Positions 1 through 32,870 of a stretch of DNA of 64,000 nt are shown piece by piece. The stretch's first letter is position 1, and the number at the start of each line of letters is the position of its first letter. Source of the DNA: Pratylenchus scribneri. Its lineage: Eukaryota > Nematoda > Chromadorea > Rhabditida > Pratylenchidae. The translations under genes were made by a program, and so were the position numbers. Location: contig JAQSEB010000109.1 of NCBI GenBank assembly GCA_030063045.1, forward strand, positions 558,001 through 622,000, read 5' to 3'. A model generated the notes under the pieces. It was not told the DNA's origin. It saw only the letters and a list, made by a program, of their open reading frames with translations, and did no database searches.

Positions 1-237
1 AGTAGTCTATTATATACTTTTAACCCGTTTTTTAAAAGACATTTTTTGATCATAATTAAAATTTTTTAAAGACATAATTTGAGCCAATACCTATCGAGCT
101 TTTTTAAAAATTTTAAAATTTGAGCCAAAACCTTTTGGGTATATTTTAGTGAATTTTTAGAAAATAATAATATTTTTCTCTCTAATTTGAAAGCATAAAT
201 AAGCGAATACCTATTGGCTACTTTTCAGTTAAAAAAT
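1..237 (+). repeat. Element 1 left terminal inverted repeat
   Basis: Inverted match to 17,622-17,823. The shared outer part covers the terminal ~95 bp, and the inner part ends at GCGAATACCTATTGGCTAC (about 213-231). The left copy carries an extra ~40 bp around 100-145 in which the GAGCCAA(T/A)ACCT motif is repeated, so the two TIRs are not identical in length. Confidence 0.9.
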
Positions 238-253
238 TGAAAATAAAAAAGAA

Positions 254-261
254 TATATATG
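254..261 (+). promoter_or_regulatory. TATATATG box upstream of ATPase
   Basis: TATATATG begins 24 nt before the ATPase ATG. The same octamer occurs at 893, 6,224 and 8,110, each 24-38 nt before a start codon of a virion-block gene. Read as a TATA-like promoter; in AT-rich DNA chance occurrence must be tested. Confidence 0.45.
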
Positions 262-277
262 ATAAAAAAATTAAAAA

Positions 278-892
278 ATGATATTTAAAATGTTTCAAGC
301 TCCGTTTACTATGATTATCTCTGGTGCCACTGGTAGTGGTAAAACTCAGTGGTTATTAAAATTTTTAAAATATTCAGACAAACTTATTAACCCTCCCCCA
401 AATAAAATTTTGTATTGTTTTGGTGAAATGAATTCAACTATTTTTGAACTTAAAAATGAAGGAATTACCACTTTTAATGGCATACCCGATGAAGAATTAA
501 TTAAAAAGCATCAACTATTAATACTAGATGATTTAATGTTGAATGTTCAAAATGAGTTTTTAGATCTATTATTTACTCGAGGTTCACATAATTGGGGCGT
601 AAGTATAATTTTTGTTACCCAATCACTTTATGGACGCGACATAAAAACAGCCAGAGCAAATTCCCATTATATTGTGCTGACCAAAAATCCTCAAGGTCTT
701 TTACAAGTAAGAACTCTCGGCTCTCAATTGTTTCCCAAAATGCTAAATTATTTCTTGGAAGCATACCGTGATGCAACTTCTAAACCATTTTCATATTTGC
801 TCGTAAACATGCATCCAAATTCAGATGAAAAACTCAGGTTATCAACAAATATTTTCCCAAATAAAAAAACGACTATATATTTACCCATTTAA
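278..892 (+). CDS. Polinton genome-packaging ATPase (FtsK/HerA type)
   Basis: 204 aa. The N-terminus has a Walker A motif, SGATGSGKTQ (residues ~15-24), and a Walker B stretch, LLILDDLM (~80-87). Both are characteristic of the A32/HerA-like ATPase that pumps DNA into Polinton and related DNA-virus capsids. The C-terminal SYLLVNMHPNS...LRLSTNIFP segment matches the end of the element 2 ATPase (27,597-28,381), which supports full length. The start may be this ATG or the in-frame ATG four codons later. It is the first gene of the plus-strand virion block, uninterrupted by introns, with a TATATATG box just upstream. The copy looks intact. Confidence 0.9.
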   Translation: MIFKMFQAPFTMIISGATGSGKTQWLLKFLKYSDKLINPPPNKILYCFGEMNSTIFELKNEGITTFNGIPDEELIKKHQLLILDDLMLNVQNEFLDLLFTRGSHNWGVSIIFVTQSLYGRDIKTARANSHYIVLTKNPQGLLQVRTLGSQLFPKMLNYFLEAYRDATSKPFSYLLVNMHPNSDEKLRLSTNIFPNKKTTIYLPI

Positions 893-900
893 TATATATG
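893..900 (+). promoter_or_regulatory. TATATATG box
   Basis: Octamer immediately after the ATPase stop codon and 34 nt before the ATG of the 117-aa gene; same motif and spacing as the other three boxes in element 1. Confidence 0.4.
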
Positions 901-1280: not shown

Positions 1281-2179
1281 TGAAGCATACAAAGAAAATG
1301 TTAATGATACCAGAAAATGAATATTTGACATTATTGAGCATGGTAAAAGGAGCCGATAGTATGGGAACAGAGAGAGCTGAAACCGATTTGAGTATACAAA
1401 AAACATTGAATGATCCAAAGATTGGTGAAGATTTACGTGCTAAGCGCTATAATTGGCTCTATAAGAAACGTCGACAATTAAAAAATGAAATTGAAAATCG
1501 TCCACAAAAAGTAGTCCTTACGAATAATGAACCGAATGCAACAGTACCCCCATATGTGAATACAGGCAATACCCAATCTAGCAAACCTCATCTTCAACAG
1601 ATAGAAACCACCGAGTATGATACTGCAGCCGATGTAGCCACTCCACTTTTAGGATTAAGGGCACAGAGAACTCGAAAAAGTCCATATAATCAAGCAAAAA
1701 CTCCTTTTAAAGGAATTATTCGAAAAGATTATACTAATGAATTACACACATATGTTCGTAATAATAGAGAAAAATTCCGAATTCATGAAGATTCACAGTT
1801 TGAAACATATGAAAAAGGTAAAAAGATAAAGGAAAGTAACTATAAAAAAGTATTAGATTTTATGCTCGGTGATGCTCCGAGTCCAGGCAAGGGATTTAAA
1901 TTTCTTTTTAGTCGGATAACTAAAGACCCTATAATTAAACAATTGATTGAAAGATCGAAAGTAAATCCTCTTAGCGATAGTACAGCTTCATCTTCATCAG
2001 ATTATGAAAGTACAAGTGGTAGCAACACACCAATACAATCGGGTGAAGGTAATAAGAAATCGAAATTCAAAAGAAGAACACATGTTATTGTAAGAAAAAG
2101 TGCAGCACCGATGGGAAATATAAATGCAAAAAATCAAATAAAAAATAAATTTATACCAAAAATATGGGAAAAACTATAG
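1280..2179 (+). CDS. Conserved Polinton protein of unknown function (299 aa)
   Basis: 299 aa. It begins MKHTKKMLMIPENEYLTLLS, resembling the KLVLVPVDLYKGL start of the element 2 counterpart (26,308-27,237). The middle is polar and low in complexity. The C-terminal third has a conserved feature in both copies: SPGKGFKFLFSR here and SPVGLKYLHRSL in element 2. It lies between the 117-aa protein and integrase in both elements, so synteny supports homology although sequence identity is low. It overlaps the integrase start by 16 nt in another frame. I do not recognise a catalytic motif; a structural or assembly role is plausible but unproven. Confidence 0.75.
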   Translation: MKHTKKMLMIPENEYLTLLSMVKGADSMGTERAETDLSIQKTLNDPKIGEDLRAKRYNWLYKKRRQLKNEIENRPQKVVLTNNEPNATVPPYVNTGNTQSSKPHLQQIETTEYDTAADVATPLLGLRAQRTRKSPYNQAKTPFKGIIRKDYTNELHTYVRNNREKFRIHEDSQFETYEKGKKIKESNYKKVLDFMLGDAPSPGKGFKFLFSRITKDPIIKQLIERSKVNPLSDSTASSSSDYESTSGSNTPIQSGEGNKKSKFKRRTHVIVRKSAAPMGNINAKNQIKNKFIPKIWEKL

Positions 2180-3258
2180 ATAAGGTGTTAAAGGACGTCT
2201 ATTTTCAATTAAAATCTCCTGCATCCTTTTCTGGGCAAGAACGGGTCTATAAGGAAGCGCATAAACGAAATAATAAAATAACACGGAAACATGTTCGTGA
2301 TTTTTTATTCAACCAACGAGTTTACACAATGCATAAACCACAAAGAAAAAGATTTCCCCGATTGGCAACTAGACCTAGTGGACTACATTCAGATTGGCAA
2401 GCAGATTTAGCAATCTTTGATCGATTAGCTGATAAAAATGATGGCTATAAATATTTGTTAGTATGCATTGATGTGCTTAGTAGGAAAATGTTTGTTGCTC
2501 CTGTCCATTCGAAAAAATCTGAACATATGATTGAAGCTTTTGAGAAAATATTTAGCCAAGGTATTATTTGCTCAAAACTTTACACTGATCGCGGTTTGGA
2601 ATTTCAAGCTAATAAAATGAAAGAATATTTCAAATCAAAAGATATTGATAAAAGAGTTGTATACAGTCCCGATATTCATGCAGCAATGGCTGAACGAGCA
2701 AATCGAACAATTAAAGACCGTTTGTATCGCTATTTTAGTGAGCATAATACGGTTCGATGGATTGAACCTGTCCAAAAAATAGTGGCAGGAATAAATGAAA
2801 GTGTGAATCGTGTCACGGGCATGAAACCAAATGATGTAAATTATGGTAATGCCCGTCAACTTTACAATAGACTATATAAGGATGTTGAAGAACCTACTAT
2901 TCCAAAATCAAAAATCCTCAAAATTGGACAAATTGTACGTATATCTAAAGAAAAAGGCAAATTTGAAAAATCTTATTTGCCAAATTTTTCTGACGAACTT
3001 TTTCGCATAAAGTACGTCAATTCATCACATTTTCCCGTGGCTTATAAGTTGGAAGATTTGGAAGGTGAGGAAATTTCAGGTATTTTTTATCGAGAGGAAT
3101 TAGTGCCTACTTCATTAGAGGAAACAACACATAGAATAGCCGAAGTCCTTAGGAGCAGAATTCGACGTGGTCAAACTGAACATTTTGTACGTTGGATTGG
3201 TTATTCGGAAAAGTATAATAGTTGGATCAAAGATAGTGATATTGTGAGACATCACTAA
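2164..3258 (+). CDS. Polinton retroviral-type integrase with C-terminal chromodomain
   Basis: 364 aa and intact. The rve core shows the DDE triad: Asp in DWQADL (residue ~79), Asp in LYTDRGLEF (~141) and Glu in AAMAERANRT (~178). The C-terminus (~320-364) is a chromodomain with HRIAEVLRSR and HFVRWIGYSEKYNSW. In chromointegrases this domain binds histone marks and can bias insertion. The enzyme inserts the linear element between TIRs and produces a 6-bp target duplication. It overlaps the preceding gene by 16 nt. The element 2 integrase has the same architecture but two introns. Confidence 0.95.
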   Translation: MGKTIDKVLKDVYFQLKSPASFSGQERVYKEAHKRNNKITRKHVRDFLFNQRVYTMHKPQRKRFPRLATRPSGLHSDWQADLAIFDRLADKNDGYKYLLVCIDVLSRKMFVAPVHSKKSEHMIEAFEKIFSQGIICSKLYTDRGLEFQANKMKEYFKSKDIDKRVVYSPDIHAAMAERANRTIKDRLYRYFSEHNTVRWIEPVQKIVAGINESVNRVTGMKPNDVNYGNARQLYNRLYKDVEEPTIPKSKILKIGQIVRISKEKGKFEKSYLPNFSDELFRIKYVNSSHFPVAYKLEDLEGEEISGIFYREELVPTSLEETTHRIAEVLRSRIRRGQTEHFVRWIGYSEKYNSWIKDSDIVRHH

Positions 3259-3264
3259 TCAACA

Positions 3265-5778
3265 ATGGATTCATTTTATATTATTCTTCCTTCAAATACT
3301 GGTGATTTAGATCAAAATACCACCTCAAATTTTACTGTTCGTCTACCTGATACTTTAGAACTGGATTCAAATTGGACAGTTGCATTGTCAAGTATAATTT
3401 ATCCTTTCTCATTTTCTATGCTAGATGAGGAAGAAGACGAGAATAGTTCAATAACAATTTATCGTCGTTATGGAAATGAACTCCGCTCAATATTGGTCGG
3501 AATTCCGGATATTTTCTATAAGGATGGAGATGCATTAATGCATGCTATAAATTCCATTTTATTGGATGTTTGGGAAAAAGAATTGCATAAAAAAGGTGGC
3601 GATTATGAAAGGGATGCAGCTGCAGGGAAAAGTAAAAGACAATTGCCTCCTGAAGGACAATTGAAAAATCCAGAGAGAATTGAGGAATCAGAAGAGACTA
3701 AGAAAGCGGTAGCAGCCTTTTTGGCTGCAAAGGCACAACAAACCGGTGGGACTCAAACAGCTACCTCTATCCCTTCTGGAAAAGAAACTGAGGGTCAATT
3801 AGAAAGAATTGAGGAAAGTGAAGAAATTAAGAGAAAGGTACAAGAGTTAATAGATGCAAAACAAAAGGAACATTCAACTTCTTCTACCCAACCAATTGTA
3901 AATTCTTCCACATCGATATCTCAACAACCTGCAACTTCCCAAACGCCTCCCCAACCAGTTACTTCTATTCCCTCTGGACCAAGAACAGAGGGTGAATTAA
4001 AAATTGTCGACAGAATTGAAGAAAGTGATGAAGTCAAAAAGAAGGTACAGGAGTTTATAGACGAAAGACAAAGGCAGCAACAAGTACCAAGCAATCAGCC
4101 ATCAAGTGATGGTACTTCAACAGGAACAATTTCACAACCAACAACTAGTCAAACTCCAATGGATGGTACATTAACACCAATACCCAAGGATGCACCAGTT
4201 CCATTGCCTAAAGGCTTCGAACCAGAATTGCATGAGCCATTGCTGAAATTAGCAAAAAGTGCATCGGACAGAGCCTGGAAGAAAAGTGTCGAAGCAGCAA
4301 AGAAAGCTCAACAAGCCCAAGAATTGGCGGATCATCATTTCACACTTGCACGATTGAAATACGCCCGAAAAGATTATGTCGAAACAGCTAGTGGGACCGG
4401 GGAACTTATTCAAGTGAGTAAAACACCAGAACACATTTTTGAATGGGTCCGCGAACAAATTGAAATTATAAAACAAAGAAAAGATTTGGTGGCATCAAAG
4501 GCTCAAATTGCTGCTGATGCTGCTTCTCGTGCTGCTACCGCAAAAAGAGAAACAGATGCGGCTGTTGAAAGAAAAGATGTAGCTGAAGCAAGGAAAGCAG
4601 CGGATCGTGCTAAAAATGGTCGTAGGACAGCTGAGGATGGTAATAAACAAGCTCAAGAGGCTCTTGATGAATTAAAGAAACTATCTGAAGAAGTAGTAAA
4701 GAAAGTAGATACAGCTCTCTATGAACAAGACAATCCTTCGGAACCAGTGGTTTTGCCAATGCCTCCACCAAGCCCTCCACCACAACTACAAAATATACCT
4801 ACTACATTGGATGAAGGAAAAGTAGATGAAAGTAAATCAAAAGATGGACCATCAAAATTGGAAGAAGAGAAAGATCGGAGTGAATCATTGGATCAACAAA
4901 AAACAAAGGATGATGGAGATGAGGAAGGAACGGATGCCGATTTTGAAATAACCACTAGCGATTCAAAAATAAAGCAAAAACCAGATATTCTATTTGAATG
5001 GCCAGAATTTGATGATCAGAATATTGATTATACTGAGGAACAAACAAATGAAAAAAATGATATGAGAAAACCAAGTTCTAAAAAAGTCCCTAAAACGGGA
5101 ATATTTATTCCTCCTTCATATGAAATTCCATCTCCAATAGATGAGGCGGTTGAGCCATGGACTCCAACAGAACAATTACCTGCCTTACCTGAAGCACAAG
5201 CATTACAAGCAGGTTTCTTTGCCTCATCAATGGGAAGAGAACCTCAGCGAAGAATTCATTTTGCTGAGCATGCCTATCCCCCAGAGTACACTCGAATGTT
5301 GATGAAAATGACAAAGGAACAATTGGCTGATTCCCGCTATCAATGGGTCTATTTTCATTATGATACTGTGCATCATCGTTTCTGGGTTTCAATGCAGGGC
5401 AATGTCCAATATATTGTGTTGAGTAAACAATTGGCATATACAATGGGGTTTGATATCCAAAGACTCTACCATGGACATGTGGCAAAATACATGCCCGATA
5501 TTGCGGGAGGAGTACGGCAATTGGTAGTCTATGCTCCAAAACTAGTTGAGAATAGTATAATTGGGAATGTAACAGCCCCAATACTACGAGTGGTTAATGT
5601 TACAGGAAATCAAGGTCAGTGTATTTCTTCTATATATGAGACTGAACATCATCATCGTTTATTGGGAAAAAGACACCCAGAAATTACAATCGAAATTCGC
5701 ACTTTAGCAGGAAAATTGGTTAAATTTCATTGGGGAAATTGTATATTAACACTACATTTTCAACGAGCCATATTTTGA
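3265..5778 (+). CDS. Penton/minor-capsid-like structural protein with long repetitive insert (837 aa)
   Basis: 837 aa. Residues 1-90 (MDSFYIILPSNTGD... and VALSSIIYPFSFS) and the last ~170 residues (LSKQLAYTMGF, HVAKYMPDIAGG, LTLHF) match the termini of the element 2 protein at 30,456-32,285. This N-terminal signature is typical of Polinton structural proteins usually taken as penton or minor capsid. Between them are ~550 residues of low-complexity sequence: three ~70-80-aa repeats with RIEESE(E/T)xKK, Pro/Ser/Thr linkers, an Ala-rich coiled coil (~340-490) and an acidic stretch (~520-640). The insert differs entirely in element 2. Likely a virion surface or vertex protein; exact role inferred. 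Confidence 0.8.
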   Translation: MDSFYIILPSNTGDLDQNTTSNFTVRLPDTLELDSNWTVALSSIIYPFSFSMLDEEEDENSSITIYRRYGNELRSILVGIPDIFYKDGDALMHAINSILLDVWEKELHKKGGDYERDAAAGKSKRQLPPEGQLKNPERIEESEETKKAVAAFLAAKAQQTGGTQTATSIPSGKETEGQLERIEESEEIKRKVQELIDAKQKEHSTSSTQPIVNSSTSISQQPATSQTPPQPVTSIPSGPRTEGELKIVDRIEESDEVKKKVQEFIDERQRQQQVPSNQPSSDGTSTGTISQPTTSQTPMDGTLTPIPKDAPVPLPKGFEPELHEPLLKLAKSASDRAWKKSVEAAKKAQQAQELADHHFTLARLKYARKDYVETASGTGELIQVSKTPEHIFEWVREQIEIIKQRKDLVASKAQIAADAASRAATAKRETDAAVERKDVAEARKAADRAKNGRRTAEDGNKQAQEALDELKKLSEEVVKKVDTALYEQDNPSEPVVLPMPPPSPPPQLQNIPTTLDEGKVDESKSKDGPSKLEEEKDRSESLDQQKTKDDGDEEGTDADFEITTSDSKIKQKPDILFEWPEFDDQNIDYTEEQTNEKNDMRKPSSKKVPKTGIFIPPSYEIPSPIDEAVEPWTPTEQLPALPEAQALQAGFFASSMGREPQRRIHFAEHAYPPEYTRMLMKMTKEQLADSRYQWVYFHYDTVHHRFWVSMQGNVQYIVLSKQLAYTMGFDIQRLYHGHVAKYMPDIAGGVRQLVVYAPKLVENSIIGNVTAPILRVVNVTGNQGQCISSIYETEHHHRLLGKRHPEITIEIRTLAGKLVKFHWGNCILTLHFQRAIF

Positions 5779-6223: not shown

Positions 6224-6231
6224 TATATATG
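6224..6231 (+). promoter_or_regulatory. TATATATG box upstream of MCP
   Basis: Octamer 38 nt before the major capsid ATG, in a 46-nt gap after the pVI-like gene. Same motif as at 254, 893 and 8,110. Confidence 0.45.
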
Positions 6232-6261: not shown

Positions 6262-7652
6262 ATGTCTACAGTCAAAAAAATTGACAAAGATAGTGCTGAA
6301 GGGATTGATAATAGACTTACCTTCTTCTCGATTCCGGCAACAAATGTTGGTATTCAACGCTCATCGACCAAGGAAATACTCCCTTTGAATGCCCTCAACC
6401 AATCCGCTGGGCCGTTCATATTTCGATACTTTGGGGATTCATTGTATTTGGATTTGAGCAAAACTTATCTATACCTTGTGCTTTCGCTGGAACGCAAAGA
6501 TGCGGATGGTGATTGGGTGGCCACAACTGATGGAACCACTGCCGGATTTGAAGGTGATAAGCATGTTAGTGTAGCACAAATGATCGGATTGACCTGGATT
6601 CGTCGCCTAATGGTTTCAATAAATGGAGTCCAATGTTATGATTCAGGCATTCATTATGCATATCGCAGCATCATACTTCATGAATTGGGCTCAGCTCGCG
6701 ATCTGAATAAAGGTATTTATGAGGCAGCTCTCTACTATGATGATTCAATTGATAAAGATGCATACAATGGAGTCGGTTTCCAAGCTCGAGCCACTCGATT
6801 TGCTAAAGGAGTCGAATGTAGAATGCTTTCACATCTTGACTATGATTTAGCCCGACAAAATCAACTCCTAATCCCTCATAGCGATGTGGTTTGGACTCTG
6901 TATAGAAATACGGATGATTTCCTTATTCAAGCACTCAATTTTAAAAAGGCTGCAGCTGATGCAGCTTTGACAGCTAACGCCCATACTTACCGACTTCGGT
7001 TGCACGATTTAAGATTGTATGTTAAGCAGGTAGATCTTAGCCCTTCATTGAACAATGCAATTGCACGCCATTTGGAACAGACACCAGCAAAATATGCACA
7101 ACGAAAAATTGAAATAAGAAATGTATTTTTAGGAAAAGGAAGGCAAGAAATTACTCACCCTGCATTCACTTCGACTTGTCCACGCCGACTGGTAATATGT
7201 TTTGTGGAAGCTGATGCTTACACTGGCAGTGTGAAAAATCACCGTTTACATTTTCAAATGCAAAAATACGTTCCGTTTCTGCTGAATTTGGTGGACACAT
7301 TTTCCCTTCGGTGCCATATGATCTGAATTTTAATCAAGGTAATTTTGTTCGTGCCTATGTGGACATGTATGCTGGAATGGGTTTAGATGAATGGCCAAAT
7401 ACTGACCAACGAACACTGGGCATAAGCATGAAAGAGTTTTCAAAATCTTCATGCTTTTTCGTCATCCCAATGACATCTACGCTAGAGGATACATCCGGAA
7501 TGGAATTGATTCGTCAAGGCACAACAACAGTAAAATGCACGTTTAACGAAGCAATTGGTGACACAGGATATGAGATGCTTATTTTGGGTGAATTTGATTC
7601 TATCCTGTCCATAAATGCAGACCGTGTTTTAACATCAGATGGTTCAGTTTAA
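6262..7652 (+). pseudogene. Major capsid protein (double jelly roll), one frameshift
   Basis: The first reading frame (6,262 to ~7,257) covers most of the protein: DNRLTFFSIPATNVG near the start, then LYLDLSKTYLYLVL and TWIRRLMVSINGVQ. Homology with the element 2 MCP then switches to another frame, continuing as SAEFGGHIFPSVPYDLNF and LDEWPNTDQRTLG to the stop at 7,652. The break lies at a short A-run near 7,255-7,262 and is explained by one missing base. It could be a real mutation or a sequencing/assembly homopolymer error; programmed frameshifting is less likely, since the element 2 copy needs none. This is the hexon-like capsid building block. No introns here, versus four in element 2. 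Confidence 0.85.
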
Positions 7653-7661
7653 ATTTATCAA

Positions 7662-8108
7662 ATGAATTCCTTACAAATTGAAAAAATTCTAACAAGTTAT
7701 AAACCACTTAAAGGAATTTTCAAAGGCGTTTTTGCTTCTGATACAATTCCTACAGGATTGAAAGTCCCCTATTGTTTTATTGCAAATACAATGAGAGAAG
7801 GCACTGCGGGACAACATTGGATTGCTTGCTATTGCGAAAAGCGAAATACCATAGATTATTTTGATTCCCTGGCAGAAGAGGCGCCTCCCGAATTACAGAA
7901 ATTTTTAGAACAATTCACTCATGTGAATGCTAATAGTATTGCATTACAATCATTATTTTCAGAAACATGTGGGCATTATTGTATTTATTTTTTGGTGAAA
8001 AGAGGAAAAAATTCTTTTTCGCGTGTACTTAATCAACTCTATTCACTACCCATGATTGAAAGGGAAAAGATGGTAAAAATGTTTTTGCAATCATTAGTCA
8101 AATATTGA
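7662..8108 (+). CDS. Adenain-like cysteine protease (Ulp1/C5 fold)
   Basis: 148 aa. Catalytic elements are visible in order: His in QHWIACY, Asp in DYFDSL, and Gln seven residues before Cys in LQSLFSETCGHY. This is the His-Asp/Gln-Cys arrangement of adenovirus maturation protease and its Polinton homologues. The enzyme cleaves capsid and core precursors during virion maturation. It starts 10 nt after the MCP stop. The element 2 homologue (34,577-35,069) has the same motifs and one intron. No lesion seen. Confidence 0.9.
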   Translation: MNSLQIEKILTSYKPLKGIFKGVFASDTIPTGLKVPYCFIANTMREGTAGQHWIACYCEKRNTIDYFDSLAEEAPPELQKFLEQFTHVNANSIALQSLFSETCGHYCIYFLVKRGKNSFSRVLNQLYSLPMIEREKMVKMFLQSLVKY

Positions 8109-8109
8109 C

Positions 8110-8117
8110 TATATATG
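8110..8117 (+). promoter_or_regulatory. TATATATG box upstream of membrane-protein gene
   Basis: Octamer just after the protease stop and 37 nt before the ATG at 8,147, followed by a second TATATATTT run at about 8,129. Confidence 0.4.
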
Positions 8118-8482: not shown

Positions 8483-9119
8483 ATGCGAACTACCGACATC
8501 CAGGAGAATATGTATCGAGCTTTGAAGAAACATGAACAAGAGGAGGCGGAAAAAGGAAATGAAAAATGCACACCATTAATTGATTTGTTGTGTCGTTTCA
8601 ATGGTGGTTGCCAGCCGCATTTACTTCATCAGCACATTAAGAGAAAAAATTTGGAAAATTTGAATTACTTACAATCATTGGCCAGCCGCACTGAGTCTGA
8701 AGCAATAGCGAACGGAAATGGACAGCGAGTCTATGAAGATGGAATGGTGCCAATGAAGAACACCTTTATTTTGACAACACATTTAAAAAATTTTCAATTG
8801 GATATTTTCCCTACAAAATTCACCAATTATGGTGCCGATCGTGTCCATGCACTTAATGGATTTTTGGGAATCAGCATTCGGTAAGTATTAGCAAAATCTA
8901 AAAATAAATTTATTAATTTTTAGACAATATTTTTATGTGCGTCATCGAATCAACCTTCGTTTTCCACACTTGCCATTGGTGGGCGTTTTCGGCGGATCTG
9001 GTCACAATAAACATTTTTATTTCTATCCATTGGAATGTCTTTGCCTACTTGAATTGCCCAATGAAGAACAAATACAAATGAACGAACCAACATTGGAACA
9101 ACCGGAAGAACAATCTTAA
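8483..9119 (+). CDS. Stand-alone PAZ-domain protein (Argonaute-derived), two exons
   Basis: About 195 aa in two exons (8,483-8,880 and 8,924-9,119) joined by a GTAAGT...TTTTTAG intron that keeps the frame. The C-terminal half carries the PAZ core: QYFYVRHRINLRFPHLP, then a short loop and FYFYPLECLCLLELP, matching the 'QYF..KY.I.L.YP.LP ... YYP.E.L.I' pattern of Argonaute PAZ domains. The element 2 protein at 28,901-29,451 has the same core. There is no MID or PIWI domain, so it cannot slice. The N-terminal ~95 residues are unrecognised. PAZ domains hold the 3' end of small RNAs, so an RNAi decoy or adaptor role is plausible (inference). It lies between the virion block and the TBP gene, inside the element. 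Confidence 0.8.
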
Positions 9120-9216: not shown

Positions 9217-9843
9217 ATGATTCCAATCAAACCTATAATCCAAAATATTGTTTCTACCCTATCTTTGGCTCTACCTAACGGAGAAAAATTTAATTTACAT
9301 ACAATTGTGAGCAAATTGCCAAATGCTCATTATCGCCCTGAACGCTTCTCAGCCATGATCATTCGATTGCCTCAACCAATAAGAACGACAGCCTTGTTTT
9401 TTTCCACCGGGCGCTTGGTGTGCGTCGGAACCAAATCTGAACAAGAATCCCTTTCCCAGCTTAACAAATTTATGGAATTAATTAAGAATGTAACTGAAGC
9501 GGATATTCGAGTCAAGGAGGAATTCAAGATACAAAATATGACGGCATCATTCAAATTTGAAGGCCTATTGAATTTGGAAGGTATGTAAAATAATTTTTGG
9601 AAAATATTTAATTATTTAGGTCTCTACATCTTTTTGAATAGCCTTTCAAAACCAAAATGGATTAGGCAATGTTCATTCAATCCAGAAATTTTCCCGGGAA
9701 TGTGCCTACGAATGAACACAACAAAATGTGTGGTTTTACTCTTCTCATCAGGGAAAAGTGTGATTACCGGAGGACGAAGCGAGAAAGAAACACTTGAAAT
9801 TTTTGAATTTATTTATCCGATTATTGTTGAATTTGTGAAATAG
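9217..9843 (+). CDS. TATA-box-binding protein homologue encoded by the element, two exons
   Basis: About 195 aa, exons 9,217-9,580 and 9,620-9,843 with a 39-nt GTATGT...TTAG intron. Two direct TBP repeats are visible. Repeat 1 has IIQNIVSTLSL, RFSAMIIRLPQP, TTALFFSTGRLVCVG and KSEQES; repeat 2 has FKIQNMTASF, FPGMCLRM, VVLLFSSGKSVITGG and RSEKET. The paired Asn residues (QN) that contact the TATA centre and the four minor-groove Phe positions (RF, FF, FP, LF) are conserved. The length equals the TBP core, with no long N-terminal tail. It lies 7.9 kb inside element 1, so it is element cargo. Likely role: promoter recognition with host or element transcription machinery. No copy is seen in element 2. 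Confidence 0.9.
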
Positions 9844-9923: not shown

Positions 9924-10930
9924 TCAAAAAATGCTATGAACAAATTCATCTCGCAAATCCATCAAAATTTCTCCAAGAACATTTTCGCCCTGCCAATTGC
10001 TTGGATCTCTCAAATGTTGGATATTTCTTGGACTGACACCACAAGTCCAATGTGGGTTACAAATGGTGGCTTCAGTGAGCAATCCATCTCCAGTATCAAT
10101 CAATTGCTGGAAAAGCAAGGGATTCTGCGTGAATTTGGCTCGGCATCCCTCATACATTATCTTAAAAAATTAACAAATTCCTCCTTTTGAAAATACCTTA
10201 TCTCTGATATCAGCCCATTCCATAGCACTAAAATTGCGGACTCGTTGTGCCAAACGACGAATTTTAATTGTGTTTGTTTCCGTCAAAATTTGTTCAGCCA
10301 TCTCTTGATCTCCAAAATATCGAGCCTTTTGCTAGGCCAAATAATGTTCAGCAGTGAGGAAATTACGGCCCAGTAATGTGAAAAACGATTTGTAAGCATT
10401 GTGGAATCCAAAATCCTGACCAATGAAATACAAAATTTTCTGTCCGTTTATTCCTGTGATTTCAATTGGGGGCAATGGTTGTCTGAATTCCATGTCACCA
10501 ACAAAGACAGCAGCAGAACCTGAATTTTTTAAAAATGAAAGTAAATTCAAAAATTGTTACCAATTGGAACAAGTTCTGGATCGCTTATCATTCTGAAAAT
10601 ACAAAAAACTGAAGTAATATTAAAAGATATTCTTCTGGTAACGAAACCAAATTTAATAAATGAAAGTTTTATCAAATTAGAGGATTTATTATTGGATTTC
10701 CACGATATCCATAAGGGTAGCAAAGAAAATTCAAATCAATATGTCCTTTATCATATATTGGTGCATAACGTCTAAAAATGAAAAAAATTCAAATATAAAA
10801 TAATTTTTAACCTTTTCTGTGCCTTCGTCACAATAAATCCCTTTCGCCAATTTGGTTGAAACCCCAATCGTTCCAACAGCACCGGTTCCATATCCTCGCC
10901 ATTGGATTTTACTCAATTTAAAGTGAATAA
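9924..10930 (-). pseudogene. NADAR-domain protein, in-frame stop, several exons
   Basis: Minus-strand, with introns at about 10,763-10,802 (reading down), 10,585-10,670, 10,520-10,560 and 10,155-10,190. The NADAR domain (YbiA-like, DUF1768) spans FIGQDFGFHNAYKSFF, TAEHYLA-stop-QKARYFGD, and then GCRAKFTQNPLLFQQLI and NWQGENVLGEILMDLR. A TAG at 10,332-10,334 interrupts it where the family has a residue before QKA; the flanking sequence stays conserved, so the stop looks recent. NADAR proteins hydrolyse N-glycosidic bonds of ADP-ribosyl groups and related substrates. An upstream ~100-aa segment (RGYGTGAVGTIGVSTKLAKG) is unrecognised. It converges on the TBP gene and follows the truncated PolB directly. 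Confidence 0.7.
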
Positions 10931-10974
10931 AAAATTCAATTAAAAAATTCATTTTTAAATATATTTTTTATAGA

Positions 10975-13640
10975 AAATGGTAGTGTAAGTGAATTGGCAA
11001 TAACGTCATCGCGTTTAGAAGGATCTGTTGCCAATTTGAAAAACAATTGTTGAAATTTAACAATAGCATGGGCCAAAATTCTCACATCCTTTAAATTTGT
11101 ATTTAAAATTTTTTATTATTTTTTCTACCTGTTCACAATATGTGCCAATTTCTTTACCAAGGCAAAATGGTGTATTTTCATTTTCAGAATACCATCGATT
11201 AAATGCTTCCAATCGGTCTTTTTGCATAGTTTCGGGATAGTAGAATTTTCGATCAGGCAAATGGGGCAATTCGACATGCATGTTTCTATTCAAATTATAG
11301 CCATGTGGGAAGAATGCTTTTCCTCCTTCATTTATTTCCAAGCAAAGTGCTTTTGGCATTTTTTCCAATTTCATCATCATCCAATTAAAAGAATCTCGAA
11401 ATGATAAATGCGGAGAAATGCCTTGTTTCCTCTTTAAAAGTACTTCAAAAAGTTTATTCCCGCTGCGGGTGATTTTCGGCTCCATGCCTCCCACTTTCAA
11501 TAATTCATTTATCAGTAAATGCATGTCATAACGACTAAAATGATATGTTAAAATATTTGATCAAATTTTACCCTCCATAATGTGCTATTGCATATGTTCT
11601 CCGCTTTCGGAAAATTCCCGAACCAACTCCTCGAAGTAGCCATGTGATAAATTCGGCCAGAGGATTCGAATGAGTAGCAGCAGTCCACGTGTTCATCCTT
11701 TGACGATTGGGCATACAAATTTGACAATCGCCTGTGGTGTTCTGCTTCCATTTTTCCTCAGTCCTCATACAAAGGGAACACATCATATAAGTCTTAATTT
11801 AATTTTTATTCATTAAATTTTGTAATACAAATTACCGAAACGCAATTTACTTGATGCAATTTGAAATTTTCATCGTAGTTTTTGGTGGGAAATTCATGAT
11901 CCAATCTCAGTGATTTCCATTCTTTTTTATCGGTAATTGGAGAAATTTGTGTAGATTCAAAATCGTAAACAATCTAAATATATTTTTTTAAATATTGCAT
12001 TTAAAAATTACAATAAAATATTCTCCTCTTTTTTGCTTGGGAACTATTGGTTGAACATAACATTGATCATCTTTTTTATGAATTGAGCGACAAAGATTGC
12101 AATAGCGCATATGGCAAACATGTCCAAATTCATTTGGTTTATCGTTTGGATTGATTATCGGCTGCTCATCAACATTATCATCATCGCTTTCAATTTCTTC
12201 TTCTTGCATTTCACTTTCAACATCCATTGCTTTTTTGGGAGATTTGGCACTGTAGATTTGACCACATTCCAAACATCTAAACAGTGAAATTGTATTTTAC
12301 CAAATTAAATTAAATACCTTTTATATTTATCGCAAATATGTTTGTCCAAATGCCTTTTAAAACATTTGGGATGACGAAAAATATTATTACATTTTTTGCA
12401 CTCATTGAAGTATTTTTCCCGTTTTGGGCATGGAAATCCCCAACCAATTCCACAACATCTCGGACATTTGGCTGCCTAAAACACTAAATTTTATTCATAT
12501 TTCTCAAATCACTTACGCATTTTGCACGATGTAGAATGGGATCACTGAATGTGCTCTCACATTCCATACAATAATTTGTACCGAATAATTTAGAGATGTT
12601 CCTTATGGGTGAATAATGGCCATTTTTCAAATATAGACCAATCTCCTGTTTGGCGCGATTTGTTCCCTTCCACATTGGCCGCATTCGTCCTTTTTGTCCA
12701 AAAACAGAAAGTCGATATTCATTTGGCCAGCGCTTATTTAAATACTCCTGTATCATTGGCACATGTTTATCCACAGTATAGAAGGGCTCATCAAGTGGAT
12801 AATTGATTCCTCGTTTTTTCATTTGCAAGATGATGTCCATTATGAGCCTTGCTCTTCTATGTTTTGAAAATGTTCCAATTCCGTTCACCACACGTTGAAA
12901 TCTTTTATTTCCATTTCGATCTCCTTTAATTTTCTTATACATGATGGCAAGTTGTATGGCCAAAAGAAGACAATGATTTTCTCCAAAAAATAATCCTTCA
13001 TTTTTGGTCTAAAATAATTTTTTATTTTTATTGCAAATTTTTTACTGACGGGAATCAAATTGTTCAAATCTATTCCTTGTTCAATTTCACGTTTATGCCG
13101 TCCTGATCCACCCCGTGCCTGTTTAACCAATTCCATTGCTTCTTCTGTTGATGGCCCCATAACAATCTAATGGAAAATGATTCAGTAAATTACAGATTTT
13201 TCTAACCTCGATAAATATTGGTTGACTGAATAGAGAAGGACGACCCTTGTTCTTTCCGCTTTGATCTACATCATCAAACTGCTGCATAACTGTTTGTGCA
13301 TTGTTTTGTTCAAGAGTGCGATAAGGAATTTGAATTGGTTTTTCGAGAATTTCCGAACGGATTATTATTGAACATTTTCTGCCTGAATCCCTGAAGCTTG
13401 ATCCGCCAATGAAATGAAATGATCGATCAATTGCTCCATTAAAATTTCTCGGCCTTCGGGTGCATCCTCAGTGTTTTTCACGGAAAATGAAGCTCTAAAA
13501 TAGTTCATTTTTCTGATATGGATTTTTGGCTTACTTGAATACTCCAATTTTAAATCGACGATTTTTGATTTTTTCTTCTCCTTCGGTCTGATAAAAATGG
13601 GTAATTGGAAAATTACCATATCTTCGGGTGCGAGGCATCT
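10975..13640 (-). pseudogene. PolB N-terminal and exonuclease region; polymerase palm missing
   Basis: Multi-exon, minus strand, 5' end approximate. In order: a Polinton PolB N-terminal region (EILEKPIQIPYRTLEQNN), an OTU-like part ending NGHYSPIRN, Cys/His knuckles (CMECESTF, CPRCCGIGWGFPC, CNLCRSIH), Exo I (VYDFEST), Exo II (AIAHYGGRYDMHLL) and Exo III (YCEQ joined by splicing to DVRILAH). Homology stops after IANSLTL at ~10,985. The palm motifs A, B and C (DFxSLYP, NSLWG, DTDS), all present in element 2, are absent, and the NADAR-gene region begins almost immediately. A frame change near 13,370 sits at an A-run. It may be a deletion derivative whose exonuclease part survives, or a decayed gene. 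Confidence 0.8.
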
Positions 13641-13880
13641 AATAATTTTATAATTTGTTTGAACATTTTCAAAAATATGAATCCGAATTTTTGAAATCGG
13701 TTTTTTGAAATTTATTAATAATTAAATTTTTATCAAAATTTATAAAAATGATTTATCAAATAAATAATGCAATTAGTTCGGCCATTGTTTCTGAAAAAAA
13801 TAAATTTATTATTTTTAGAGATTAAAAATTGCCTTAATCCGATTCGAGCATAATATCATCAATCTTTTCTTTCATTTCTT

Positions 13881-14685
13881 TCATTTCTTTCCCACACCGA
13901 AATTGCTGTAGAGACGATTTATGGATGATTGCAAATCTTTATTTGCCATTGAGCAATATTGGCAAATCTAAAATTATGAATTAAATTAATAAAATTTATT
14001 TTTTACCAAGAAATTTAATTCATAAATTTTGTCGCGTTTCACAAGGAAAACATCATTGGCCAAATTCTTTTGTTTATCCGCACAATTTTGACACTAAATT
14101 ATTTGTTGTTATTTTTAGGATGACAATAATTTACCTGATGGAGGCACCATGCATATTTTAAATTGAGTAATTTCTCATCGCCTGCACCGGTTATGTTTTC
14201 GCCACGAAAAACATATGAAATCTCTTGACCATGTTCGTTGGCATTATTCACTAAAAAACAATATTTTCATTTTTTATAAATCAAACCTGCTTGATTCCAA
14301 TGACGATTATAGCTCATGTTCAATTGTATGTTATTGTTGAGACAATCAGCGCACATTTTAATTGGCAAAATATTCAAATCGGATTGGTCAGTCTTGAAGA
14401 CAATTCCTTCTTCTCGTTTGAAATGACCCTGTTTGCAATCCTGGCAGAATTGAAGGAAATAGGCAATTCTGGGAAGCTTTAGAATTTTTGCTCGATTCAA
14501 TAAAGCCAGCGGCACAGCTTTCAATGCTCGGGATTTTCCTAAAATAATAAGATTTTTCTAATAAAAATGAACCAACTTTCTTCCTTGCGGCGTAAATAAT
14601 CCCTCTCATCATCCCCTAGCGAAATGTTTTCATCCGTCTCAAAATCAGTAGAATCCATTTCATTTTCCGTAATTTCTTTTTCCAT
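13881..14685 (-). CDS. CxxC-rich putative zinc-binding protein, about five exons
   Basis: The likely start is the ATG at 14,685 (MEKEITENEMDSTD; an in-frame ATG also lies upstream at 14,778), and the stop is at 13,881-13,883. Exons are joined by short introns at about 14,535-14,575, 14,245-14,285, 14,096-14,136 and 13,970-14,010, all keeping frame. The acidic N-terminus is followed by FLQFCQDCKQGHFKREEG, MCADCLNNN, CQNCADKQ and ICQYCSM, that is, four CxxC pairs suited to two zinc sites. I recognise no family. It is upstream of and co-oriented with PolB. No counterpart of this length is seen in element 2, which has two other small CxxC proteins. Confidence 0.6.
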
Positions 14686-14778: not shown

Positions 14779-16213
14779 TTAATTTTATTATTTGAATTGC
14801 AAAAATATAAAATTAATAGAATTTTCGAGCTATAATAAGCATCGATATGTGAGGGAAACATTATGGAATAACGGAAACTTTATATTAGGGACCATCTCAA
14901 AAATGAAAAATTAAATTAAAGAAAGCCCAAATAAATTAAGGATGGATAATAATTTTATTTAATTGGATAAACTTTATAAAAGAAGTATGAGGAAAGGTAT
15001 ATTCTTAGTTTTGTTGGAATATTTGAATTTAAGAATGATGAAAAGTAGAAATTTTCGCCAGCTTTTATATCCGCTCGGTCCAATGCCTCAGGCATTGGTC
15101 TAATGCCGCTGGAGGCATCATTTAATGCCAAAGGCATTGGTCTAATGCCGCTGGAGGCATCAATTAATGCCAAAGGCATTGGTCTAATGCCGCTGGAGGC
15201 ATCAAATTAATGCCAAAGGCATTGGTCTAATGCCGCTGGAGGCATCAAATTAATGCCTAAGGCTTTAGTCTAATGCCGCTGGAGGCATCAATTAATGCCA
15301 AAGGCATTGGTCTAATGCCAAAGTCATCACTAAATTTGCCTATATAATAGTGTGAAATTTGTCTCTCAAAACATTTCCAACAACAATAAAATAATATAAA
15401 TATAAACTCAAATTTCTTCTCAAATCCTCCTCCTTCCTCCTATTTTTCAATAAATCTTTTAAGCTCCTCCCATCCGTTTTAACTCCCTATTAGAATCGTA
15501 TTGCTTAAATATTTTCCAAAATTTATGCATCGCTTTCCTCAATTTTTAATGCAAATTCTATTTTCAAATAGGCCTTTCCGAAAAAAATTCCAATATTTAA
15601 ATAATAATATTACCTCCTGAATTTCTTCACAAAAAAGACCCGATCCGAATATTTATTTAATTTTAAAATTTTAATTCAAATAATTTTAAGTTTTTAAGAT
15701 GAGTAAAAATTTTGTTATAAAAGCTATTTACGGGCGATGCATAAGATGGAATTGTAAATTTTATTTGTGTGGCTTCTATGGAATTAAGGAAAACAGGTGG
15801 ATTGAAGTCAGGAATTAAAATATTAGAATATTTAATATTATAAATTTAAGGAATGTGACATACCCCCATGTAAATTACGCCTTTACGAAAAGAATAAGCA
15901 GGTCGGAAGAAGAACTGGTGGCCACCCGAAATATAGAGAAGTGGAAGATAAGAAAAAGAAAGAAAAATAAAAAATATTCGTTTAACTTCATTTAAAATGT
16001 TGTTTCGGTCCTAAAACAACATTTATTGTTCCCGCGAACCAATAAATATTTTTAGTAATTTTTAATTACATTAGAGTTTTCTTTCATATCAATAATTCAT
16101 TAGTTGCCTCGCTTTTTTCCATTTTAATAATTTTTAATTAATAAATAATTTTCCCTCCATATCAATGGTCTTCTCTCCTCCTCCTTATGTTCAATAGTTT
16201 ATTTTTATAGAAA
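14779..16213. other. Non-coding region of element 1 holding a palindromic array
   Basis: No convincing gene on either strand. It contains the ATGCC/GGCAT array (15,083-15,335) and AT-rich sequence. Open frames inside the array only reflect the repeat. The 5' regions of the divergent CxxC gene (minus) and NADAR gene (plus) both fall here, so promoters for both are expected in it. Confidence 0.6.
15083..15335. repeat. 42-43-bp tandem array of ATGCC...GGCAT hairpins
   Basis: Six units starting at about 15,091, 15,133, 15,175, 15,218, 15,261 and 15,303. Each holds two small inverted repeats: ATGCCAAAGGCAT and ATGCCGCTGGAGGCAT. They are unusually regular and GC-richer than the surroundings. Such repeated dyads are typical of protein-binding iterons or of recently amplified satellites. 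Confidence 0.9.
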
Positions 16214-16832
16214 ATGGTAAAACCACCAATACTATTCCAATCAATTGATGGCGAATATTTTTGGGCATTTTTCGGCCAAGATTATATCTTCAATAATTCT
16301 TATCCCGCATCATTCACTATAGATTCCCACTCCTTTAATTGTAGTGAACAACATTTCCTTTGGCAGCGGGCTTTATATTTTGGAGATATGAATGTTGCCG
16401 ATCAAATACTGGCTTCAAAATCACCCGCAGAGCAAAAGATTATAGGCCAGTGGACCAAGAATGTTTCTAATGTTTCCGTAGATGATTGGGAGCAAAAGAA
16501 AGATAGAGTAAGGAGTAGGAAAATCGTTTAAATTAAATCTCATTATTTAGGCAATGTATAATTCTGTCTGGCAAAAATTTGCACAAAACGCGGAATTGTC
16601 AAATGTGTTGCTCTCCACTCGCCAAATTCCCATTGTGTGGGCATCGCTCTGGGACTATTATTGGTCAATTGCCGTGCCTAACTATGAAGAGGAAATTTTG
16701 AAGGATAGAAGCAAATGGAAAGGAGGCAATAAACTAGGTGATGTGCTCGCACTTGTCCGCCACGAATTGGAATTGTTCTATTTGGATCTGGGTTGGGACC
16801 TGCCAACAATCATGAGAATTGAGGGGCAATGA
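16214..16832 (+). CDS. NADAR-domain protein, two exons
   Basis: About 191 aa from exons 16,214-16,507 and 16,551-16,832 (GTAAGG...ATTTAG intron, frame kept). NADAR signatures: FSEQ-type motif NCSEQHFLWQRALYFGD, then WQKFAQNAELSNVLLSTR and KWKGGNKLGDVLALVRHEL. NADAR enzymes (YbiA/DUF1768) remove ADP-ribosyl-type groups by N-glycosidic cleavage; some reverse DNA or RNA ADP-ribosylation in anti-phage toxin systems. In the segment where the family usually has an acidic residue before Ala-Ser (EAS), this protein reads VWAS, so activity may be altered. It is quite divergent from the other NADAR gene at 9,924-10,930, so it is not a fresh duplicate. Confidence 0.75.
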
Positions 16833-17543: not shown

Positions 17544-17621
17544 TTTGATGAAAATTTTCTTTTTCTTCCATTTATATAGCCACAATTTTCCAGAATGGAT
17601 TTCTCTTTATTCAAATATATT

Positions 17622-17823
17622 GTTACTTTTTTAAATGAAAAGTAGCCAATAGGTATTCGCTTATTTTTATGATCTCAAATTAGAGAGAAAAATTTTAATA
17701 TTTTCTAAAAGATTCAATAAAATGTACTCAAAAGGTATTGGCTCAAATTATGTCTTTAAAAAATTAATTATGTTCAAAAAAATGTCTTTTAAAAAACGGG
17801 TTAAAAGTATATAATAGACTACT
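17622..17823 (-). repeat. Element 1 right terminal inverted repeat
   Basis: Inverted copy of the left TIR, ending ATAATAGACTACT. A degenerate further copy of the same motif family (CTCAATAGGTATT followed by an ATGTCTTTTAAAA stretch) lies internally at about 17,100-17,160, so this end has an additional subterminal repeat. Confidence 0.9.
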
Positions 17824-17853
17824 ACTAATATTCTTACCGAATTGGAGGATATG
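17824..17853 (+). pseudogene. 30-bp host exon remnant between the two Polintons
   Basis: ACTAATATTCTTACCGAATT onward to GGATATG aligns codon by codon with the last exon of the intact gene at 37,996-42,307 (region about 42,167-42,199, AATTATATTGG...GAGGAGATG). It encodes TNILTELEDM in the same frame. The continuation of this exon is found at 36,554, after element 2. The first six bases are the predicted target duplication of element 1 and the last six (GATATG) that of element 2. Confidence 0.9.
17848..17853 (+). repeat. Left target-site duplication of element 2 (GATATG)
   Basis: GATATG directly precedes AGCAGCTATCCTC and is repeated right after ...GAGGATAGCTGCT at 36,548-36,553. Six bp is the length known for Polintons. 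Confidence 0.95.
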
Positions 17854-18550
17854 AGCAGCTATCCTCTCAGATTCCACCAATACGGTAGCCAGTACGGTAG
17901 CAGCGAATACCTAAGCGGCTACTTTAAGCGGCTGCCTATGAGCTTCCTTAAGGGACCAAAGATCACCACCCCAGCCTGCCAGCCGGTGCCTAGAGGCTTT
18001 GTTGTAAGGGGTAAGGGATCAAAGGTCACTCCCCTGCCCAAAAATAAAGCCGACGCCTAATGGCAAAAATTTAAAATTGGAAATGACGCCAAAATGATCC
18101 AAATTAAAATTACATAATGCCAAATAAAATAAATTTAAATAAAATTGTGGAAAAATAGAGCGCACAAGCACTCGTCGTAACTTGTGACGCCCTATAATTT
18201 TTAAATCCTATATATTTACCAAATAAAAATATAAAAATTTAATATAATCCAATTTTTATTTTTACTCTTCTTTTATTTAATTTATATTTAATTATTATTT
18301 TATTACATTTTCCAAATATTTTCCCTCAAATTTCCAACGCCAAATATATTCTTTTTATTTCCTTTGGTGGATATTTTTGCCAAAATGCCTTTGAGGGAAG
18401 GCGCCAAATACTCCCCACGCCATTCCGTCGACAAAAAAAAATCGATTCCCGCTTTTTGGCCAAGCGAGCAGACAAGAGTGCACATTACGTATGGCTTTCC
18501 CCACTATCTCTCCTATTTTGTTTTCACTCTGCCAAAAATTTGTAAACGTA
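17854..18550 (+). repeat. Element 2 left terminal inverted repeat
   Basis: Inverted match to 35,836-36,547. It includes the GC-rich outer ~200 bp (ACGGTAGCCAGTACGGTAGC, CTTCCTTAAGGGACCAAAG), the central CAAGCACTCGTCGTAACTTG block and the inner TTTTTGGCCAAGCG block. It ends near GTTTTCACT...AAATTTGTAAACG. Confidence 0.95.
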
Positions 18551-18606
18551 ATCATTTTTTTAATGGGGATATTTTATGCAAAATTGACGGGATAAAAAAG
18601 GTGACT

Positions 18607-18948
18607 TGTTCTATGGTTTTTTGTTCAGTGGCCTTTTTGTTCAGTGGCCTTTTTGTTCAGTGGCCTTTTTTGTTCAGTGGCCTTTTCGTTCAGTGGCCTT
18701 TTTGTTCAGTGGCCTTTTTTGTTCAGTGGCCTTTTTTGTTCAGTGGCCTTTTTTGTTCAGTGGCCTTTTCGTTCAGTGGCCTTTTTGTTCAATGGCCTTT
18801 TTTGTTCAGTGGCCTTTTTTGTTCAGTGGCCTTTTTTGTTCAGTGGCCTTTTTTGTTCAGTGGCCTTTTCGTTCAGTGGCCTTTTTGTTCAGTGGCCTTT
18901 TTGTTCAGTGGCCTTTTTGTTCAGTGGCCTTTTTTGTTCTAAGCCTTT
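18607..18948 (-). repeat. 17-bp subterminal array, variant TTGTTCAGTGGCC
   Basis: About 20 head-to-tail units of roughly 17 bp (TGTTCAGTGGCCTTTTT), starting some 55 bp inside the left TIR. On the minus strand each reads GGCCACTGAACAAAAA. The 17-bp period leaves all three frames open (repeated QWPF, FSGLF), which produces spurious ORFs. Confidence 0.95.
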
Positions 18949-19204
18949 TTTGTTCTGAAGCCTTTTTTGTTCTGAAGCCTTTTTTGTTCTGAAGCCTTTT
19001 TTTGTTCTGAAGCCTTTTCTGTTCTGAAGCCTTTTCTATTCTGAAGCCTTTTCTGTTCTGAAGCCTTTTTTGTTCTGAAGCCTTTTCTGTTCTGAAGCCT
19101 TTTCTGTTCTGAAGCCTTTCTTGTTCCGAAGCCTTTCTAGTTCCGAAACCTTTCTTGTTCCGAGGCCTTTCTTGTTCCGAGGCCTTTTTGTTCCGAAGCC
19201 TTTG
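18949..19204 (-). repeat. 17-18-bp subterminal array, variant TTGTTCTGAAGCC
   Basis: About 14 units continuing directly from the first array. On the minus strand they read GGCTTCAGAACAAAAA, grading into GGCCTCGGAACAAGAAA at the inner end. They share the GAACAA core with the first array and with the right-hand array. Confidence 0.95.
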
Positions 19205-19466
19205 AAAAATTGGCGGGAAAAGGGAGGAATGATGGAATGAAATTGGGAGGATGGAAAAAAAGGGGAAAGAAAGAAAAATTGGCAGAAAAAAGGAAGCATT
19301 GAATGAAAGGGAGGAAAATTTAAAAAATATATTTTCGCCAAAATGGATAGGAACAAAAAGGGCGGGATTAAGAGAGGGAATCATTTTTATAATTCATTAT
19401 AATCATTTTATTAAATCTAAAATTATTTCTTGAACTATATATTCGGCAAATATTAATTCCTTTAAA
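19205..19466. other. Non-coding leader before PolB
   Basis: Purine-rich then AT-rich; no gene seen. It probably contains the PolB promoter. Confidence 0.4.
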
Positions 19467-25127: not shown

Positions 25128-25159
25128 ATTCACTAATTTTATTTTGATAAAAATAATTT

Positions 25160-28381: not shown

Positions 28382-28408
28382 GAAATTAAAAAATATAAAT
28401 GAATGATT

Positions 28409-32868: not shown

Positions 32869-32870
32869 AA

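Follow-up and report, generated by a model that had tools for sequence, protein, structure and literature searches.

The genome of the nematode Pratylenchus scribneri contains Polintons that carry a gene for a TATA-binding protein (TBP). One of them fills the first 17.8 kb of the window, the stretch of 64,000 nucleotides analyzed here (C109:558001-622000), and a search of the complete genome (227 Mb in 276 contigs) places 64 of 70 TBP loci in such elements. As far as can be judged from their sequences, the encoded proteins likely bind TATA boxes of the elements and would bring in TFIIB and RNA polymerase II of the host, a reading to which we give somewhat better than even chances.

An intact TBP gene in a damaged Polinton

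The DNA at the left end of the window constitutes a single Polinton, named element 1 in the following. Its features, together with one from the neighboring element 2, are given in window coordinates:

1..255, unstranded: left terminal inverted repeat (TIR) of element 1, perfect over 1-47; AATATT stands just left of it, outside the window
275..889, plus strand: A32-type packaging ATPase, ATG at 278 (Pfam 5.1e-7, above cut-off)
2149..3255, plus strand: integrase (rve 1.6e-8, above cut-off) with chromodomain (Chromo 8.5e-5, below cut-off)
6262..7652, plus strand: major capsid candidate, in two frames here, no Pfam match
7653..8105, plus strand: adenovirus-type cysteine protease (Peptidase_C5 0.014, C48 0.021, both below cut-off)
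8483..8880, plus strand: exon 1 of a PAZ-like gene candidate, directly upstream of TBP (E 0.15 with a profile built without it)
8924..9119, plus strand: exon 2 of the PAZ-like gene candidate, including the stop (Pfam PAZ E 0.0046, below cut-off)
9217..9580, plus strand: exon 1 of the TBP gene, ATG at 9217 (Pfam TBP and PDB match)
9581..9619, plus strand: intron of the TBP gene, 39 nt, GT-AG, phase 1, within the Gly of LEG/L
9620..9843, plus strand: exon 2 of the TBP gene, including the stop TAG at 9841-9843
11060..14557, minus strand: PolB region, fragmented (DNA_pol_B_2 6.4e-6 for 11060-11560, just below cut-off)
16211..16829, plus strand: NADAR-domain gene, cargo (Pfam 2.9e-12 and 2e-15)
17608..17826, unstranded: right TIR of element 1, with one extra AGT/ACT unit at its end
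17827..17832, unstranded: candidate target-site duplication AATATT, 6 bp, palindromic
29053-29214, minus strand: PAZ-like frame of element 2 (E 0.0008 with a profile built without the window)

Element 1 is delimited by TIRs and a 6-bp duplication in the manner of Polintons/Mavericks, the palindromic nature of AATATT making the duplication a weaker proof, and both the rve integrase and the A32-type ATPase score above the Pfam cut-offs. For PolB, a single piece reaching 25.7 bits against a cut-off of 25.8 was accepted as sufficient; in other Polintons of the genome PolB frames comprise 1300-1400 amino acids. Outside of the TBP gene the element is damaged: the capsid frame is broken and approximately 2.2 kb of the PolB side are missing near 10902-10982. 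Five more copies of the window type reside on five other contigs and exhibit 95.5-99.7% DNA identity across a 6.4-kb block. All five possess the missing stretch and encode the capsid candidate in a single frame of 467 amino acids. The homologue of this candidate in element 2 gives a match to a DJR-like domain below the cut-off (0.003), and homologues of the cysteine protease occur in other Polintons of the genome. A NADAR-like match in the vicinity of TBP was also observed in the other window-type copies.

The TBP gene of element 1 itself is intact and encodes a product of 195 amino acids; in two of the six window-type copies the gene is broken. The protein matches Pfam TBP with an E value of 9.8e-41 over two repeats, the pseudo-repeat arrangement of TBP, and human TBP is its best match in the PDB (E 2.5e-33, residues 4-193). 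At the positions that we take to be those of the TATA-contact Asn residues both are retained, as are all four intercalating Phe residues. The latter are named in PMC3142196. The first-pass annotation had assigned the gene to a Polinton and had pointed to the very same residues. Both statements are borne out, as the gene lies intact between the TIRs and recurs genome-wide, and with 64 Polinton TBP loci instead of one the phenomenon exceeds the scale originally noted.

TBP loci across the genome

The genome search with PF00352 yielded 128 matches, each of the 140 candidates having been scored. These were grouped by hand into 70 loci, a number also returned by a script allowing gaps of at most 2.5 kb, which are not to be equated with independent insertions; some have the appearance of homeologues or of contig ends present in duplicate. 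At least 63 of the 70 loci have a Polinton marker (a match to ATPase, PolB, INT or PAZ) within 12 kb, and a PolB-like match identifies C25:575978, at a contig end (L027), as the 64th Polinton TBP locus. A random point would fall within 12 kb of one of these markers, 368 in number, with a probability of no more than 3.9%. All marker lists are lower bounds: the ATPase list holds the best 150 of 313 candidates scored, the PolB list the best 72 of 317 candidates (72 loci entered by hand) and the PAZ list the best 142 of 308 candidates (115 loci, by hand). The 31 rve markers were chosen by match range and frame length from the best 150 of 603 candidates.

Besides the window, the surroundings of 28 of the 70 loci were read in stretches of 5-10 kb, which revealed six loci outside of Polintons and homologues of element genes at all of the 22 others; at three contig ends (L024, L027 and L028) the evidence for an element consists of one PolB-like piece each. 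The six non-Polinton loci comprise the canonical host TBP (two loci), a second host TBP gene (two loci), a TLF-like exon and a fragment that sits beside a gag frame. The second host gene (L010 and L011, on C33 and C115) bears introns; the window-type TBP may have been derived from it.

Carriage of TBP is not universal. A TBP lies within 12 kb of 12 of the 150 best-scoring ATPase matches, in a list that ranks matches by their similarity to the window and therefore under-samples TBP groups other than that of the window, and a TBP match occurs within the same distance at 7 of the 72 listed PolB loci. For the remaining 138 of these 150 ATPase matches a TBP match was not obtained within that distance, and it follows that Polintons in this genome do not need TBP. 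GC contents of 0.51, 0.49 and 0.45 were determined for the TBP-bearing Polintons L030, L034 and L031, respectively, and values of 0.25-0.40 for the window (2-kb steps); the GC-rich elements look as if they had arrived recently. Another TBP-bearing Polinton carries a thymidine kinase gene (L037:1588-2214, minus strand, Pfam 3.1e-37).

Scans of IMG/VR with TBP, the TBP alignment and the ATPase did not find a relative. Since the Polinton ATPase likewise lacked a relative in IMG/VR, the scan is uninformative with regard to TBP elsewhere. A contig scan retrieved one other TBP (L038), from a sequence classified as part of a bacterial MAG; it served solely as an outlier in the TBP tree.

Groups and origin of the Polinton TBPs

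On the basis of sequence and context the Polinton TBPs fall into three groups: P1, the window type, with six loci; P2, with four single-exon loci beside PolB; and P4-P7, to which all remaining Polinton TBP loci belong. At C131:357892-376616 two P2-type PolB-TBP copies are arranged in inverted orientation about 12 kb apart and resemble a palindromic composite element. P4-7, P2 and P1 form separate starred groups in the TBP tree (19 rows, 216 columns). The branches of this tree are long and its deep joins uncertain, and it is with this reservation that, in two builds each, one clade for all Polinton TBPs is not rejected (p-AU 0.082-0.085), a clade of P1 with both host TBPs is rejected (p-AU 0.0085-0.012), a clade uniting P1 and only the host paralogue is not rejected (p-AU 0.13-0.14) and a clade of P1 with P2 is borderline (p-AU 0.043-0.051).

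In the ATPase tree (12 rows) the window element groups with two TBP-less relatives (100/99), and a single clade of the tested TBP-bearing elements is rejected with a p-AU of 0.0008. This rejection implies at least two changes of TBP state, be it gains or losses; TBP has likely been taken up by Polintons more than once.

The intron in the P1 genes is located in the same Gly codon and in the same phase (phase 1) as an intron in host TBP and in the host paralogue. The TBPs of P2, P6 and P7 are single frames and the P4/P5 intron is found at another site. An intron common to P1 and the host TBP genes speaks for capture as DNA and not as a retro-copy, and it points to the P1 TBP being a host-type gene that would have been acquired in this form, possibly from the host paralogue. 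A very recent retro-copy of host TBP, which the first-pass annotation had named as an outcome adverse to its own proposal, is ruled out by this shared intron and by an identity of only about 40% between the window-type TBP and the paralogue.

Selection and residue conservation

The TBPs of the divergent groups are clearly under purifying selection. Calculated according to Nei-Gojobori, dN/dS amounts to 0.07-0.15 in P2 (three pairs), 0.09-0.16 in P4/5 (five of six pairs, one being saturated), 0.16 in P6 (one pair, dS 1.6) and 0.22 in P7 (one pair). For exon 1 of P1, ten pairs from five copies were compared, the sixth copy with its missing codon having been left out, and the nine pairs with dS above 0 gave values of 0-0.38 on the basis of at most eight changes per pair.

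In 14 Polinton TBPs from the three groups the first three intercalating Phe residues are invariably Phe, and the fourth position is occupied by Phe in eight and by Tyr in six proteins. The second TATA-contact Asn is kept in all 14 proteins and the first in 13, the exception being a Tyr in L036. The protein surfaces are more variable. The basic stretch in the helix of the N-lobe, presumably the contact site for Mot1, NC2, TFIIA and TAF1, contains two Lys or Arg residues in P1 and in P2, three to six in P4-7 (P4_L029 left out of the counts), five in host TBP and four in the paralogue. The pair of Glu residues that contact TFIIB reads N/E in P1, the window TBP having Asn at one of the positions, E/E in P2, and in P4-7 combines D or E with T or S; the last group keeps the basic N-lobe stretch and has lost one of the two TFIIB-contact Glu residues. 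Both Glu positions are named in PMC7221094, where the TBP N-lobe is reported to meet the four regulators and where surface changes of the same kind in viral TBPs are read as escape from host regulators.

A PAZ gene followed by TBP or TFIIB

At the loci read, a PAZ-domain gene near TBP is situated upstream and on the same strand. With a profile that was built without the window and contains L030, L034, L036 and L037 in its seed, PAZ is clear (E 1e-31 or better, one exon) in L025, L026, L029-L032, L034, L036 and L037. It is weak in all six P1 copies (exon 2 frame 0.0009-0.0033, exon 1 0.017-0.47). For the window, the exon 2 frame gives an E value of 0.0015 against the profile of its relatives built without it; an E value of 1.2e-35 for exon 1 is due to construction, that exon having been part of the seed of the profile in question. 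In the PDB the L034 protein matches PAZ domains of Argonautes (6.6e-5), and the PAZ genes of L041 and L042 exceed the Pfam cut-off (8e-9 and 3e-9, respectively), whereas the pieces from L034, L036 and the window stay below it. Judging by its domain, the small PAZ protein could act on small-RNA silencing.

A PAZ match lies within 2 kb of TBP at no fewer than 50 of the 64 Polinton TBP loci, and near eight others (the four P2 loci, two on C25 and one each on C235 and C96) there is none among the matches listed. The gene is also present in Polintons without TBP: at least 115 PAZ loci were counted, 50 of them with TBP within 2.5 kb, and in the TBP-less relative L042 neither TBP nor TFIIB stands behind PAZ.

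A search for TFIIB returned eight matches at seven loci, four of which are devoid of a Polinton marker and are taken as host exons. The other three TFIIB genes (L039, L040 and L041, on C48, C157 and C150) belong to Polintons. They combine TFIIB repeats with a zinc-ribbon match, all three are located directly downstream of PAZ, and no TBP match was obtained within 20 kb of them. It appears as if TBP or TFIIB could each serve behind the PAZ gene. Nor did any TBP locus have a TFIIB match within 20 kb, in a search that a very divergent TFIIB could escape. An element-own pair of TBP and TFIIB was discarded on these grounds, and we infer from the same result that the proposed partner is host TFIIB.

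TATA boxes at element gene starts

The sequence TATATATG occurs five times in element 1, always on the plus strand (mean of 0.96 and maximum of 5 in 200 shuffles). Four of the five copies are positioned 24-38 nt ahead of the first ATG of a gene:

254..261, plus strand: TATATATG box, 24 nt before the ATPase ATG (278)
893..900, plus strand: TATATATG box, 34 nt before ATG 927
6224..6231, plus strand: TATATATG box, 38 nt before ATG 6262 of the capsid candidate
8110..8117, plus strand: TATATATG box, 37 nt before ATG 8147

The fifth copy (5631) lies inside the end of the ORF 3259-5775. When 14 chosen gene-start windows of element 1 were evaluated from -60 to -15, with the frames of the PolB region left out, TATATATG was present at four in sense and at none in antisense orientation (shuffle mean 0.06), and TATAWAWR at six in sense and at none in antisense orientation (shuffle mean 0.88); none of 2000 shuffles reached the observed counts. 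The box is present at the three sites covered in all five other P1 copies, which are near-identical. Ahead of genes in the TBP-less relatives there are TATATAAA, TATAAATA and TATAAAAA. TATATATA reads identically on both strands and is hence directionless. TATAWAWR was found in none of seven gene-start windows of the P2 loci, and an eighth window counted with P2 stems from L023, a P4-type contig end.

When all supported genes are considered together, TATATATR was encountered in 7 of 66 cases at TBP-bearing as compared to 0 of 22 at TBP-less loci (p 0.19). TATA boxes as a whole are not enriched in TBP-bearing elements, the respective figures for TATAWAWR being 12 of 66 and 5 of 22 (p 0.76). At the ATPase promoter, TATATATR is present within 120 nt at eight of nine TBP-bearing loci (not at L029) versus none of nine TBP-less loci, in a hand-curated comparison that covers few independent lineages and a gene chosen after the window had been seen. 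In this comparison L025 and L026 share one ATPase promoter, the sequence read at C126 stops short of the ATG, the ATPase starts of the window, C195, C126 and C15 were read by hand, and C145, which combines a window-type ATPase and TATATATG with no TBP match, was left out.

An element-specific promoter system, as envisaged in the first-pass annotation, is therefore upheld in part. TATA boxes at element gene starts and the contrast at the ATPase promoter are in its favor; the all-gene frequencies, which do not differ significantly, and the TATA boxes of the TBP-less relatives are not. Because of the latter two results a private promoter code is a possibility that is not established by the mixed evidence. 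TATATATG followed by ATG proved unsuitable as a mark for Polintons, with 4711 matches genome-wide against 1711 in the reversed control.

Possible function of the Polinton TBP

We propose that the element makes its own TBP protein, which would bend TATA DNA ahead of the element's own genes, work with host TFIIB and nucleate host RNA polymerase II on these promoters, while its changed surfaces may loosen host control. What the element would gain is the ability to drive its own transcription once it has become active. A diversion of Pol III initiation, which had also been considered in the first-pass annotation, is not supported. In a more far-reaching scheme, which we regard as doubtful, the Polintons would possess a swappable slot for an initiation factor, TBP or TFIIB, beside the Argonaute-PAZ-like gene; TBP would have been taken up independently at least twice, on each occasion the box would have shifted to TATATATR and would form with TBP a private code for steering host Pol II, and the PAZ protein would blunt small-RNA silencing, the whole acting as a combined module for self-expression and against silencing.

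The same low probability is assigned to a host-directed mimic that competes with host TBP for TFIIB, TAFs or TATA promoters, has no special role at the promoters of the element and would shift or dampen host transcription to the element's benefit. Altered regulator and adapter surfaces alongside kept DNA contacts, as in viral TBPs (PMC7221094), fit such a mimic, and so do TATA boxes that are about equally common in TBP-bearing and TBP-less elements. It is less easily reconciled with the placement of TATATATG at 24-38 nt ahead of four genes in one and the same element and with an ATPase box type that tracks TBP in two distinct parts of the ATPase tree. Pol III factors serve certain retroelements as guides for integration. 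A TBP that guides the integrase to TATA-rich or promoter DNA would agree with the AATATT target duplication of the window element and with the chromodomain of the integrase encoded by it; however, the argument rests on one insertion site, a homologous integrase is present (in part) in a TBP-less element (L040), and retention of the kink-forming Phe residues suits promoter use at least equally well, so that we consider a role as integration tether improbable.

No greater credit is given to the view, already disfavored, that TBP is a chance pick-up hitchhiking with the elements. While the host-type intron retained by the window group and the two broken genes among six window-type copies are what would be expected of a passenger, at least two changes of TBP state in the ATPase tree, dN/dS values of 0.07-0.22, contact residues kept across 14 proteins and the occurrence of TFIIB behind PAZ in other elements argue against it. 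Three further possibilities, namely a host gene trapped between elements, a retro-copy and an assembly join, can be regarded as refuted. Element 2 does adjoin element 1 directly, but the gene order around TBP is kept in the five copies on five other contigs, which rules out an assembly artefact; the intron shared with host TBP argues against a retro-copy, and the 64 Polinton TBP loci are further evidence against these readings. Promotion of the element's own transcription by its TBP stays the reading that we prefer.

Comparison with known systems

Giant viruses and mirusviruses carry general transcription factors along with much of their own expression apparatus. Nematode Polinton/Maverick elements are characterized by TIRs, PolB, INT, ATPase, protease and varied cargo. 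The elements described here share TIRs, PolB, INT, ATPase and varied cargo, carry a candidate protease, and differ by the addition of TBP, TFIIB and the PAZ gene. Neither an animal Polinton with TBP nor any of TBP, TFIIB and PAZ as Polinton genes was found in the literature searched, a mention in Jeong 2023 or Widen 2023 being possible; to this extent the earlier remark that Polintons are not usually described with TBP holds true. TBP has been reported for algal elements of putative mirusvirus origin (PMC10675990) and for 59% of mirusvirus genomes (PMC10132985). Mirusviruses resemble the Polintons of this study in being a group of DNA viruses with TBP as a frequent gene, but they are giant and marine, whereas the Polintons are short (17.8 kb for element 1), reside as integrated DNA in the genome of an animal and are equipped with A32 ATPase, PolB and integrase. 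The TBPs of large dsDNA viruses and Polintons have in common that DNA contacts are kept and adapter and regulator surfaces have diverged; almost all large dsDNA viruses with TBP also encode TFIIB (PMC7221094), while in the Polintons TFIIB was found only in TBP-less elements. The duplicated TBP core is shared with the animal paralogues TRF1, TBP2 and TLF (PMC3142196). Unlike these, the Polinton TBPs are borne by mobile elements and exist in many copies, and in contrast to TLF, reported to lack TATA binding (PMC3142196), they have kept the TATA contacts.

Dozens of short animal elements equipped with TBP suggest that integrated viruses of small size, too, seize the first step of host transcription, and they raise the question of how long-silent Polintons switch on. 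TBP and TFIIB alternating behind the PAZ gene suggest a module. The Polinton TBP variants may furthermore be viewed as natural experiments in which DNA contacts are kept and adapter and regulator surfaces are altered.

The neighboring element and other features of the window

Element 2, a second and different Polinton, adjoins element 1 and spans 17849-36552, with TIRs at 17849-18240 and 36162-36552. A TBP match was not obtained in it (best E 0.11), and an Rfam search of the window found nothing. With the model for nematode SL1 RNA, 41 of 50 scored candidates give matches that span it in full, the best of them attaining 54 bits; all stay below the gathering score, which is 75. The result agrees with a nematode host without being proof of it. 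Close to the left end of element 2, at 18606-19203, blastn self-matches with many small shifts reveal an array of short direct repeats.
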